Shown here: positions 28,907 through 32,572 of the stretch, one piece after another
Numbering within the stretch: the first letter of the stretch is position 1
How the letters are laid out: every line of letters starts with the position of its first letter
From: Nesterenkonia massiliensis
Lineage (GTDB): Bacteria; Actinomycetota; Actinomycetes; Actinomycetales; Micrococcaceae
Direction: 5' to 3'
Length of the DNA stretch: 32,892 bases
Assembly: GCF_000455245.1 (NCBI RefSeq)
Contig: NZ_HG005166.1
Coordinates: 381,218 to 414,109, forward strand
Translations under genes and position numbers: made by a program
The notes under the pieces: generated by a model
Database searches by the model: none
Told to the model about the DNA's origin: nothing
The model's input: only the letters and a program-made list of their open reading frames with translations

Positions 28907-30187
28907 ATGACTGAGCAGAACTCAGCCCGCCTGGACTATCAGGGGCATGAGCTGGAACTACCGGTGGAAACCGCGGTAGAGGGCAATGATGGCCTCGATA
29001 TCGCCCCGCTGTTGAAGACCACCGGTGCGGTCACCTACGACCCGGGCTTCATGAATACGGCCAACACCAAATCGGCCATCACCTACATCGACGGTAACGA
29101 GGGCATCCTGCGCTACCGTGGTTACCCCATCGAGCAGTTGGCGGAGAAGTCCAGCTTCCTTGAGGTTTCCTACCTGCTGATCTACGGCGAGCTGCCTACC
29201 CCGGAGCAGCTTCAGGACTTCGACAACGTCACCCGCCGGCACACTCTGCTCCACGAGGAGCTTAAGGATTTCTTCGGCGGATTCCCGCGCGATGCACACC
29301 CGATGCCGGTGCTGTCCTCGGCTGTTTCGGCGCTGTCCACCTACTACCCGGACTCCCTGGATCCTTTCGATGCGGATCAGGTTGAGCGTTCCACCTACCG
29401 GCTGCTGGCGAAGGTCCCCACCATTGCGGCTTACGCCTATAAGAAGAGCATCGGCCAGCCCATGCTCTACCCGGATAACAATCTGAGCCTGGTGGAGAAC
29501 TTCCTGCGCGGCTGCTTCGGCGTTCCGGCGGAGAACTACGAGATTGACCCCGATATCGCCAAGGCCCTGGACGTCCTGCTCATCCTGCACGCAGACCACG
29601 AACAGAATTGCTCCACCTCCACGGTGCGACTGGTGGGCTCCTCGCAGGCGAATATGTTCGCCTCCATCTCCGCAGGCATCAACGCGCTCTACGGTCCCGC
29701 CCACGGCGGTGCGAACGAGGCTGTGCTGAAGATGCTGCGCCAGATCCAGGCAGGTGACGTCAGCCCCGAGGCCTTCATGGAGAAGGTGAAGAACAAGGAG
29801 GACGGCGTCCGCCTCATGGGCTTCGGTCACCGCGTCTACAAGAACTACGACCCGCGTGCTCGCGTGGTCAAGGGCCTTGCTGATGAGCTGCTGGGCAAGC
29901 TGGGCGGCGACGACGAGCTCTTCGATATCGCGCAGCGCCTGGAGCAGAAGGCCCTGGAGGATGACTACTTCGTGGAGCGCAAGCTCTACCCGAACGTGGA
30001 CTTCTACACCGGTCTGATCTACAAGGCCATGGGCTTCCCGGAGAAGATGTTCACCGTGTTGTTCGCACTAGGACGTCTGCCCGGCTGGATTGCCCAGTGG
30101 CGCGAGATGATGGACGATCGCAACACCAAGATCGGCCGTCCCCGCCAGATCTACGTGGGCGAGCCCAAGCGCGATTACCCCGCCTGA
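28907..30187 (+). CDS. gltA: citrate synthase, type II (gltA)
   Basis: This 426-residue enzyme condenses acetyl-CoA and oxaloacetate to citrate at entry to the TCA cycle. The catalytic residues fit the family: His266 in GPAHGGANEAV, His308 in GFGHRVYK, and Asp365 in YPNVDFYTG. The N-terminal extension with LLKTTGAVTYDPGF and GILRYRGYPIEQLAE is that of the hexameric, NADH-regulated type II enzymes found in many bacteria; allosteric control here is inferred. A ribosome site AAGGAAG precedes the ATG. The gene stands alone between a leader hairpin and a strong terminator. Confidence 0.97.
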   Translation: MTEQNSARLDYQGHELELPVETAVEGNDGLDIAPLLKTTGAVTYDPGFMNTANTKSAITYIDGNEGILRYRGYPIEQLAEKSSFLEVSYLLIYGELPTPEQLQDFDNVTRRHTLLHEELKDFFGGFPRDAHPMPVLSSAVSALSTYYPDSLDPFDADQVERSTYRLLAKVPTIAAYAYKKSIGQPMLYPDNNLSLVENFLRGCFGVPAENYEIDPDIAKALDVLLILHADHEQNCSTSTVRLVGSSQANMFASISAGINALYGPAHGGANEAVLKMLRQIQAGDVSPEAFMEKVKNKEDGVRLMGFGHRVYKNYDPRARVVKGLADELLGKLGGDDELFDIAQRLEQKALEDDYFVERKLYPNVDFYTGLIYKAMGFPEKMFTVLFALGRLPGWIAQWREMMDDRNTKIGRPRQIYVGEPKRDYPA

Positions 30188-30198
30188 GCTTGTTCATC

Positions 30199-30234
30199 CA
30201 GGAGCGCCCCGGCCAATCGGTCGGGGCGCTCCTG
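30199..30234 (+). terminator. citrate synthase terminator
   Basis: A 13-base arm at 30199-30211 (CAGGAGCGCCCCG) is perfectly complementary to 30222-30234 around a 10-base loop. It begins 12 bases after the gltA stop. The T run is poor, as is often so in high-GC Actinobacteria. Confidence 0.75.
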
Positions 30235-30246
30235 TGTCTCCTCGTT

Positions 30247-30322
30247 CGGTCACGCATTTTGACGCCACTTTGACCCGCTAAGCACCGAATCCAGGACGAA
30301 ACGCCGTCATATCGCGTGACCG
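30247..30322. repeat. 76-bp palindromic element A, 3' side of the nuclease-like gene
   Basis: The element begins CGGTCACGC (30247-30255) and ends with its exact complement GCGTGACCG (30314-30322). A shorter TGACG/CGTCA match sits further inside. Its length and ends equal those of element B at 31409-31484; the interiors share only scattered positions, including CGAAA at the same offset. It lies 20 bases from the stop of the leftward AbiEi/DUF559 gene. Confidence 0.75.
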
Positions 30323-30341
30323 TATGCGTGTCGGCGCAGAA

Positions 30342-31298
30342 TCAGCTGCGCCACCCCTGTTTCCGCAGTGCCCGGGTGATCTTCGCTACGGCTCCAGCCC
30401 CGCTGTGTCGCATGTGTTCTTTGGTGATGCGCACCTCTACCCAGCCCAGGGCCTCAGTCCGCTCCTGACGCCTGACATCGCGCAGCACCTGTTCCGGGTC
30501 CGAATGAACCGACTGCCCCTCATACTGGATCGCCAGTCGGTACTTCTCCACACTGAGATCTGGCTGCACTATACGGCGACCATGTTCATCCAGTAGCCAC
30601 ACATTAACCTGCGGCTCGGGAAGATTAGCCTCATACATGTAATAACGGAGCGTGGTTTCCTGGGGTGAATCGGCTCCGGGCCTCGCCAACAGGCTCGCAG
30701 TTCTTACGGTTTTTGCGCCGTTGGCTGGCCCCCGGGCTTTAGCCGCATCCCGCAAATCTGACACCCGGGTCAGTGATCCCGTTGTTTCGCCGAACTCAGT
30801 GCGCCCTGGACGCACCGCGATATCAGCCAGAATGAGCGCCTGAAGCATCGGCAGCTTCAATGCCAAGTCTGTCCAGGTCCAAGCGGGATCAGTCAGCGGT
30901 ATCGACTGGTATGTGGCGCAGAAACGCTCAGGCACATCGGCGGTATGAGAGACCACCAGCCCCGAGCGTCGCGTACGCGCCCGACCGCGTGCATGAATCA
31001 GATGATAGGGCGGACCCAGCGGAACTGGTATCAAGCCCCAGAGTGCGGCCGCCGTCTCATGTCCTACGGTCCTGCCGCCTATCGCGGTCAGTGCCTGGAG
31101 GGTGTGCAGCGCGGAAGGGCTAGCATTATTCGTTTGTGGTCCCAGAAGGCCGTGCCCGAGGGAGATGAGGGAATCATTGGCTAGCGCATGCCTGATATCT
31201 CGTGCTGGCAGTTGCTCCAGGGCTTCCCTTCTGGTCAGCCCGTGGCGGGGCACGAGGTAGTTATGGGCGCGTCGTCGTCGATCCTCGGGGGACTTCAT
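30342..31298 (-). CDS. AbiEi-like/DUF559 protein with a nuclease-like C-terminal domain
   Basis: This 318-residue protein, from the ATG at 31298 (AAGGA eight bases upstream), has an N-terminal winged-helix-like region of the AbiEi antitoxin type (GLTRREALEQLP, then DSLISLGHGLLG). A linking region follows, then a C-terminal PD-(D/E)xK, Vsr-like DUF559 domain: SPQETTLRYYMYEANLP, then PDLSVEKYRLAIQYEG and QERTEALGWVEVRITKEH. Asp247 is kept, but Gln258 stands where the family usually has Glu (IEYDG), so activity may be altered. No AbiEii-type toxin gene is adjacent. The frame stays open to a GTG at 31415 inside repeat element B. Such genes occur in many divergent copies in Actinobacteria and their job is unknown. 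The two bracketing 76-bp elements suggest a selfish or repeat-handling unit, which is inference. Confidence 0.82.
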   Translation of the reverse strand: MKSPEDRRRRAHNYLVPRHGLTRREALEQLPARDIRHALANDSLISLGHGLLGPQTNNASPSALHTLQALTAIGGRTVGHETAAALWGLIPVPLGPPYHLIHARGRARTRRSGLVVSHTADVPERFCATYQSIPLTDPAWTWTDLALKLPMLQALILADIAVRPGRTEFGETTGSLTRVSDLRDAAKARGPANGAKTVRTASLLARPGADSPQETTLRYYMYEANLPEPQVNVWLLDEHGRRIVQPDLSVEKYRLAIQYEGQSVHSDPEQVLRDVRRQERTEALGWVEVRITKEHMRHSGAGAVAKITRALRKQGWRS

Positions 31299-31408
31299 GC
31301 TCCTCATCCTTGGCCGGATGTGGCCGGAGGGGCAGAGGAGGCGCCTCAGATGTGGAAGAGCGGCCGTGGTGGACTGCCGAATCATCACTGGGGAAAACTC
31401 CGGACGTT

Positions 31409-31484
31409 CGGTCACGCGTTTTACCGGTAATAAACCGCCGCGATCGCTGAAAATGGCGCGAAATCTCGCAAAAACGCGTGACCG
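31409..31484. repeat. 76-bp palindromic element B, 5' side of the nuclease-like gene
   Basis: CGGTCACGCGTTTT at 31409-31422 is exactly complementary to 31471-31484, with a 48-base AT-richer interior that contains a further CGCC/GGCG match. The ends are the same as in element A and the total length is identical. It lies 111 bases upstream of the chosen start of the leftward gene, so it sits in its promoter region. Confidence 0.8.
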
Positions 31485-31522: not shown

Positions 31523-32572
31523 TTAGTCGCGGGAGAAACCGATGACGACGGCGTCGTCGCTCACTGTCTCCTGGCGCTCCCAGATCCCGGAATCGCGGTT
31601 CCAGTCGTATGGCCCCGCCGCCACAGACTGCACGCCGTAGTCATAAGCTGCGGCCACCGCCCAATGCGCCACCATCCAGAGGTAGTCATAGTCCCCGCTG
31701 CGTTCAGGGACATGAATCACCATCTGAGCAGTGGAGCCTTCGCCGTTGAGTTCCACCACGCCGTCCAACACCGGCTCCGGCTCGAACTCCTCGTCGCCTT
31801 GCCCCTCGGGCGCTTCGGTGAAGCTGACCCCCAAGGCGTTGGGCATCAGCGCCACCAGCTCCTCGGTGAGACCCTGGGGATCTGCCTCCGGGGCATCCAG
31901 CTGCGGCAGCGTACAGCTCATCACCACCGGCTGCTGGCCGGCTAAGGGCAGCGCAAAAGCCCGCGCTCGGTCAGTGTGCTGGGGATAGAAGCTGGGATTG
32001 TGCGGCCGGTCCAGGGCCTCAGCGGCCTCATCCAGGCTCAGCTCCGGGGTCCAGGCTGATTCCTGCTCAGCGTCCTCGTTCTGCTCTTCCTCAGCGCCAG
32101 CGTCTTCAGCGGCCCAGCGTTCTTCGAGCATGTCATAGAACCCGTCGATGCTTGCTTCAGCCACCTGGGCACTGGCGCCCTGGGACCAGTCCCGCGCACC
32201 GCGGGCAAACAACACCCGGGAATCACGCTCATTGGTCGCCTGCCGTACCGTCAGCTCGGACTCCTGCAGGGAGATCCCCACCGCGTGGACAGCCGCCTGC
32301 GGGGGCAGCTCGCGGTCCACAGCAGACACCGAGATCATCGCCGCATTATGCGCCTGTGACGGACTCAGCCGCTGGACCTGCTCCGGCAGCGCCACCTCGC
32401 AGCGCTCATCCAGCAGATACTCGTTCTGCTCGATGTACTGCCAGGCGCCGTAGCCGGTGCCGGCCACCAGAGCGGTGGTGATACCCAGGGCAACCAGGGC
32501 GCGACGACGACGGCGCCGCCGAACCATGGGGCGGGTGGCGACGACGCTGCGGTGGCGGGCGTTCGGTCTCAT
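31523..32572 (-). CDS. unknown membrane-anchored protein downstream of dapD
   Basis: I do not recognise a family. The 349-residue protein has a basic N-terminus (VRRRRRRRALVALG), one hydrophobic helix (ALVALGITTALVAGTGYGAW) at about residues 25-44, and a large acidic extracytoplasmic part with a Glu/Asp-rich stretch near residues 160-175. Its layout of an Arg cluster, a single helix and an acidic ectodomain resembles the unknown protein at 23029-24135, although I see no clear sequence identity. It begins three bases after the dapD stop, so the two are almost surely co-transcribed leftward; a role in lysine synthesis does not follow from that. Confidence 0.75.
   Translation of the reverse strand: MRPNARHRSVVATRPMVRRRRRRRALVALGITTALVAGTGYGAWQYIEQNEYLLDERCEVALPEQVQRLSPSQAHNAAMISVSAVDRELPPQAAVHAVGISLQESELTVRQATNERDSRVLFARGARDWSQGASAQVAEASIDGFYDMLEERWAAEDAGAEEEQNEDAEQESAWTPELSLDEAAEALDRPHNPSFYPQHTDRARAFALPLAGQQPVVMSCTLPQLDAPEADPQGLTEELVALMPNALGVSFTEAPEGQGDEEFEPEPVLDGVVELNGEGSTAQMVIHVPERSGDYDYLWMVAHWAVAAAYDYGVQSVAAGPYDWNRDSGIWERQETVSDDAVVIGFSRD

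Follow-up and report, generated by a model that had tools for sequence, protein, structure and literature searches.

The genome of Nesterenkonia massiliensis contains, within a stretch of 32,892 nucleotides (hereafter the window; contig NZ_HG005166.1), a nuclease-like gene enclosed by two palindromic elements of the same length, which raises the question of whether the gene and the repeats form a unit and what the protein might do with them. The first-pass annotation had described two 76-bp elements with common ends and largely different interiors, and both descriptions proved exact: the elements flank the minus-strand ORF, each begins with CGGTCACGC and ends with GCGTGACCG, and their interiors reach 47% identity in the better orientation. 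A model search of the window recovered no further copy, as had also been noted. Under a uniform base model, 4.8e-7 exactly spaced places of this kind are expected per window by chance. Element A additionally carries the inner blocks TGAC (30260-30263) and GTCA (30306-30309). A GC-rich hairpin at 30199-30234, located 3′ of the citrate synthase gene, is probably the terminator of that gene.

Table 1. Features of the nuclease locus, in positions of the window.
Feature	Position	Strand	Description
Citrate synthase, conserved neighbour	28907..30187	+	Pfam match; context
Element A, 76-bp dyad	30247..30322	.	Starts CGGTCACGC, ends GCGTGACCG; about 20 bp past the stop of the nuclease gene
Nuclease-like gene	30342..31415	-	AbiEi-like residues 49-245 and Vsr/EDxHD-like residues ~248-355
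Element B, 76-bp dyad	31409..31484	.	Same ends, CGGTCACGC and GCGTGACCG; upstream of the nuclease gene
349-aa conserved neighbour	31523..32572	-	No Pfam family found; context

Gene starts and neighbours were taken from a simple gene caller and tblastn extents. The listed GTG start of the nuclease ORF overlaps element B and residues 1-35 of the structural model have pLDDT values below 50; the real start is probably M40, at 31298. The AlphaFold model, built with 40 sequences, reached a pLDDT of 88.5 and a pTM of 0.83. In this predicted model, residues 49-245 resemble the AbiEi antitoxin 6y8q (Z 10.5, rmsd 4.6, 178 residues), a part that also gave weak profile matches, and residues ~248-355 resemble I-Bth0305I (3r3p; VIA Z 12.6, 96 residues, rmsd 2.7) and Vsr (1cw0; Z 10.4). 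Z values of 8-11 were also obtained for mitoribosomal chains that contain a comparable part. The E-D-x-H-D residues of EDxHD nucleases are present as E253, D286, H304 and D313, a motif assigned by order only; across the 40 sequences, the first three are invariant and D313 is conserved in at least 90%. The proposal of an AbiEi/DUF559 nuclease-like gene stood by fold and by relatives and fell short by Pfam gathering score, since the window protein scored 32.9 against 38.2 bits for MTES_1575 (PF18741) and 11.8 against 20.6 bits for DUF559 (PF04480). Among the 40 sequences of alignment A2, a Pfam scan at E ≤ 0.01 detected DUF559 in 17 and MTES_1575 in 26, and the only families it gave were these two, AbiEi_1, AbiEi_4 and DUF7889. 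A profile search of solved-structure sequences returned no significant match (best E 0.05). Distant matches included five in plasmid records and one in phage records. In the available text of earlier reports, a Caulobacter DUF559 protein was treated as Vsr-like (PMC12907096), and MTES_1575 was named after the Vsr-like domain of a large fusion protein, with palindromes unmentioned in the part at hand (PMC3710099).

At E ≤ 1e-8, 28 of the 30 genus genomes yielded a nuclease homologue, and eight of the 30 examined loci place it between the citrate synthase gene and the 349-aa gene. All eight syntenic loci had a palindrome on each flank, with sequences that differed among most of them. In one (G007) both palindromes were weak, with an inverted-repeat score of 13 that some control genes also reached; here and in G014 the bracket enclosed one more gene, which in G014 was a cytidine-deaminase Pfam match. 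A ninth citrate synthase/349-aa locus, in N. natronophila, had just one weak palindrome side. The first-pass annotation had looked to orthologues for the same palindrome. Its exact ends were absent from them except in Garicola koreensis DSM 28238 (G010), whereas palindromes of other sequence were present at most of the other syntenic orthologues. These differing palindromes overturned the candidate explanation that the palindrome is limited to a few genomes and the gene is ordinary.

Inverted repeats were scored around 80 homologue loci picked on protein similarity alone, 71 with full flanks and 9 without, all of them Actinobacteria by record title save one Acidobacteria bin among the loci without full flanks; 46 control genes were taken from the same loci. 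At a score of at least 15, palindromes were detected on both sides of 30 of the 71 homologues and on either side of 58, against 0 and 2 of the 46 controls (Fisher 2.7e-8 for bracketing on both sides). The corresponding numbers were 25 and 48 of 71 versus 0 and 0 of 46 at a score of at least 18, and 42 and 67 of 71 versus 3 and 15 of 46 at the loosest threshold tabulated, 12. Median scores were 18 and 19 at homologues and 10 and 10 at controls. At the threshold of 15, 13 of the 71 loci had no palindrome on any side; outside Nesterenkonia, both sides were occupied in 22 of 53 loci and either side in 42. At the same threshold, the 40 genus homologues gave both sides in 18, either side in 32 and neither in 8; this count, like alignment A2, leaves out 10 of 50 loci, where the ORF was truncated or misplaced, the sequence repeated or nearly repeated another, or a homologue was lacking. 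The nuclease-palindrome pairing is real and general, though not detected at some homologues, and the earlier suggestion of a repeat paired with a nuclease family in the manner of REP elements and RAYT proteins is supported far more generally than the window shows.

The two palindromes of one gene also belong together. Upstream and downstream arms of the same gene were more similar than those of shuffled pairs (30 loci, p ≤ 1e-4), and the gene's own partner palindrome was strictly the best match in 18 of these 30. Palindrome similarity rose with protein similarity across 72 loci, the correlation being weak (Mantel rho 0.147, p ≤ 5e-4). Above 80% protein identity the arms had a mean similarity of 0.98, and below 40% one of about 0.5; the trend was clear only above ~50-60% identity.

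Beyond the nuclease loci, we searched for dispersed copies. A strict end pattern found 10 exact copies in the N. massiliensis genome, every one of 76 bp although 63-93 bp were permitted, and the reversed control pattern gave no match there. A sequence-only model identified at least 17 distinct places; 150 of 692 first-look candidates were scored, so further copies are possible. At least 13 belong to the window class (12 of 76 bp and one of 77 bp) and at least four to a sister class of 66 bp with ends like CGGTGGCGC. The sister-class copies, whose inner half-site is similar to that of the window class, lie at C4:55267, C2:251538, C11:15140 and C2:477050 in N. massiliensis (G000) and at C15:18781 in G020, where no nuclease homologue was found in 14 kb of the locus (L133). 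The idea that the class is tied closely to nuclease genes was not supported, as 11 of the 13 window-class copies are more than 20 kb from every one of the four homologues in N. massiliensis. The palindrome of a second paralogue was found just twice with a strict pattern, both times at its own gene, and dispersal is therefore not universal. Three paralogues of this genome (L130, L131 and L132) have palindromes of other sequence, clearly two-sided in L131 and L132.

The strict pattern was present in only 2 of 30 genus genomes. In Garicola koreensis, all 10 strict copies were 66 bp long, one helical turn below 76. A near-identical pair there (L028 at C1:232578 and L033 at C3:70259) has, by eye, ~18 bp of right flank in common and is a probable recent duplication. 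A wider pattern matched 4 of 395 family genomes (G000, G010, G020 and G185), the G020 match being one sister-class copy and the single G185 match looking like chance; its reversed control gave one match each in two of the 395.

Other classes were dispersed in other genomes. The GAGSGGCGG class occurred in 9 of 30 genus genomes at 3-18 copies each, with a length of 65-66 bp among the matches listed (48-78 permitted). In these nine related genomes, those with an intact cognate gene had 11 (G004), 18 (G009), 13 (G022), 14 (G023) and 16 (G026) copies, and those in which a close gene is broken or lacking had 10 (G018), 7 (G024), 6 (G019) and 3 (G012). The catalytic segment of the G018 gene is deleted, the G024 gene is broken, and G019 and G012 have only nuclease homologues of ~30% identity. 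One Nesterenkonia copy is missing in G023 and G012, and G019 has almost nothing of it. Of 40 element loci fetched from four Nesterenkonia genomes, 32 had a counterpart in another genome, which suggests that movement is slow. At one palindrome site in several Nesterenkonia genomes (L261 and relatives), an end motif like GCGYTGAGRGGC is repeated beside the palindrome.

Four Jiangella genomes contained 72, 54, 11 and 1 copies, of 71-72 bp among the matches listed. No nuclease homologue lay within 600 bp of the 20 copies examined among the 72. Four 72-bp copies in J. aurantiaca are identical, and one pair of these matches over just 78 bp. Another identical pair (L236 and L239) has 182 bp in common, and several copies share a decaying right flank; segment duplication may therefore explain part of the spread. 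The site of one identical copy had no element in two relatives and a different palindrome in a third. At L297 (G397 C388), a different palindrome of ~56 bp, right at the end of a gene, occupies the place of the 72-bp J. aurantiaca copy. No clean target duplication was seen in two comparisons, one at a Jiangella site and one at a Nesterenkonia site. The nuclease palindromes of two J. aurantiaca loci (L201 and L222) have the outer 14 bp in common and differ in their interiors, and the dispersed Jiangella copies include both subtypes.

Regarding their structure, the half-sites of window-class elements follow a common motif, roughly CGGTCACGCNNTNTGACGGNANTTT. The REP-like reading of the first-pass annotation gained no support from hairpin covariation, of which none was seen. 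Arm similarity was 0.47 within one element and 0.49 between elements, and within-element arms were no closer than between-element arms in all six sets analysed (permutation p 0.71-1.0), of which Jiangella supplied one and Nesterenkonia-clade genomes the other five. By this measure there is no sign of compensatory pairing, although the outermost 9-14 bp, which are conserved, might yet pair. A shared half-site without compensatory pairing suggests a dyad that a protein recognises. A structured RNA was rejected on this lack of covariation and because nothing in the window reached the gathering score of an Rfam family. Tn3-like 38-bp ends, considered because 76 is twice 38, were rejected on the length of 66 bp elsewhere and on flanking direct repeats, of which none were visible by eye.

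Palindromes also bound other genes. At one orthologous site, G004 and G023 have a palindrome standing alone, G018 has a 555-bp ORF between two palindromes and G022 has an alcohol dehydrogenase (ADH) gene between two palindromes; the alignments break within ~4 bp of the palindrome ends. Gain by insertion or loss by recombination between palindromes may each account for this site, with indistinguishable outcomes; the presence of two different genes there calls for one or more gains, or else for an ancestral array that was longer. In G006, the order is palindrome, hydrolase, palindrome, nuclease, palindrome.

We consider it somewhat probable, and place it ahead of regulatory and passenger models, that the nuclease recognises and cuts its palindromes sequence-specifically and that repair drives their spread. 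Near-fixed length, dyad half-sites, family bracketing, gene-specific pairs, dispersal, sites lacking the element, cassette boundaries and the predicted fold are computed observations, from which we infer binding, cutting, mobility and the nuclease as the cause of dispersal. Under this model, gene and palindromes would form one system, in which the AbiEi-like part would read the two inverted half-sites of a palindrome of fixed length and the Vsr/EDxHD-like part would nick or cut inside or next to it. Repair of the break could then spread or replace palindromes and let genes enter or leave between two of them. The palindromes would serve as mobile or docking sites, with the nuclease gene itself lying between two, and the whole might resemble in its action either REPIN/RAYT pairs or free-standing homing endonucleases.

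An unlikely alternative is an operator model, in which the protein would repress its own gene as an AbiEi-type regulator bound to the upstream palindrome, the other copies being regulon sites and the nuclease moving nothing. The AbiEi-like N-terminal part and the lack of hairpin covariation fit such a role, and AbiEi proteins are described in the available text as repressing their own promoters via inverted repeats (PMC7319586). All 17 N. massiliensis copies are intergenic by simple gene calls, and the 13 between tandem genes include some that could be promoter-near; the remaining 4 lie in convergent gaps. However, palindromes scoring at least 15 were equally frequent downstream and upstream of the homologues (43 and 45 of 71), and four Jiangella copies are identical. 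Divergent gaps held none of the 17 N. massiliensis copies and 3 of 10 in G010 (with 5 tandem and 2 convergent), against 24 of 118 background gaps of at least 60 bp at the same loci (77 tandem, 17 convergent), proportions that are jointly not clearly different.

Less likely again is that the palindromes are an integron-like recombination or docking substrate for a host or other enzyme, with the nuclease gene as a frequent cassette. The site that is solo, ORF-bearing or ADH-bearing in different genomes, its sharp boundaries and the G006 array are all consistent with a passenger; yet each nuclease gene tends to have a palindrome sequence of its own, one that tracks the phylogeny of the gene, which is not required of a passenger. 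Bidirectional transcription terminators or insulators would suit intergenic copies often close to 3′ ends and are nonetheless very improbable given the common sequence, the near-fixed length per genome, the absence of compensatory pairing and the rarity of such repeats at control genes. Miniature transposons of an old family, mobilised by an unrelated transposase since lost and near the nuclease by chance, would account for dispersed copies and gene-free sites and are similarly hard to credit when the same protein family is bracketed, far beyond controls, by differing palindromes across Actinobacteria.

Taken further, recognition and cutting by the nuclease would allow a broader and more tentative proposal, which we regard as possible, of a mobile system that would be new in class and widespread among Actinobacteria. 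In it, a nuclease combining an AbiEi-type reader with an EDxHD cutter would drive docking sites of its own, long palindromes of fixed length. These sites would spread solo, change length by whole helical turns and gain or lose cassettes, in an integron-like manner without transposase or integrase. If so, a large uncharacterised DUF559/MTES_1575-like group of Actinobacteria would gain a DNA substrate. That substrate could be read in the genome beside each nuclease gene, so that specificity would be testable gene by gene, and the family would offer many natural pairs of a long DNA site and its reader.

We compared the pairing with known systems. In the predicted model, the C-terminal part has the fold of the EDxHD enzymes I-Bth0305I and Vsr, and I-Bth0305I reportedly dimerises on a target of nearly 60 bp, according to the available text (PMC3943268). 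The nuclease differs in being a free-standing chromosomal gene with an AbiEi-like reader and a many-copy palindromic site. To AbiEi it is linked by its N-terminal fold (Z 10.5 to 6y8q) and weak profile matches. AbiEi proteins recognise 23-bp inverted repeats that occur in pairs 3 or 13 bp apart, as far as the available text describes (PMC7319586), and this difference of about one turn can be likened to palindromes of 66 and 76 bp. Unlike type IV AbiE systems, the AbiEi-like part is fused to a nuclease-like part, and at the window locus no AbiEii toxin adjoins it (by Pfam, the neighbours are citrate synthase and a protein of no family). As for integrons, attC sites are imperfect palindromes of tens of bp that bound gene cassettes. 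Imperfect palindromes of tens of bp bound cassettes here too, with the difference that their arms lack compensatory pairing.

A search of the open literature, most subscription literature lying outside it, found no description of this nuclease-palindrome pairing. To our knowledge, dispersed palindromes tied to a single-copy enzyme are known only with tyrosine transposases. The evidence points to an undescribed enzyme-and-repeat partnership in Actinobacteria, akin to mobile repeat systems; if this is true, enzyme-tied dispersed palindromes have evolved twice, the second time with a nuclease unrelated to the tyrosine transposases. A close parallel is REPIN/RAYT (RAYT, REP-associated tyrosine transposase; REPtrons included), where, in the available text of the reports, tyrosine transposase genes are flanked by long inverted repeats and co-evolution of enzyme and palindrome has been proposed (PMC3116915, PMC3733652). 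A single-copy enzyme gene stands beside its own palindrome class, the copies are dispersed and mostly intergenic, and the class sequence varies by enzyme, all as those same partial sources describe for RAYTs (PMC3116915, PMC3733652). The nuclease family has the flanking by its own class, on both sides in 30 of 71 loci, and dispersed copies, one paralogue excepted. It differs in the enzyme, which is AbiEi-like and Vsr-like and gave no match to a Y1 (HUH) tyrosine transposase in the Pfam scan of 40 members or in the model fold, and in the palindromes, which are of near-fixed length, longer than REPs (20-40 bp in the available descriptions), without hairpin covariation and with gene cassettes between them.
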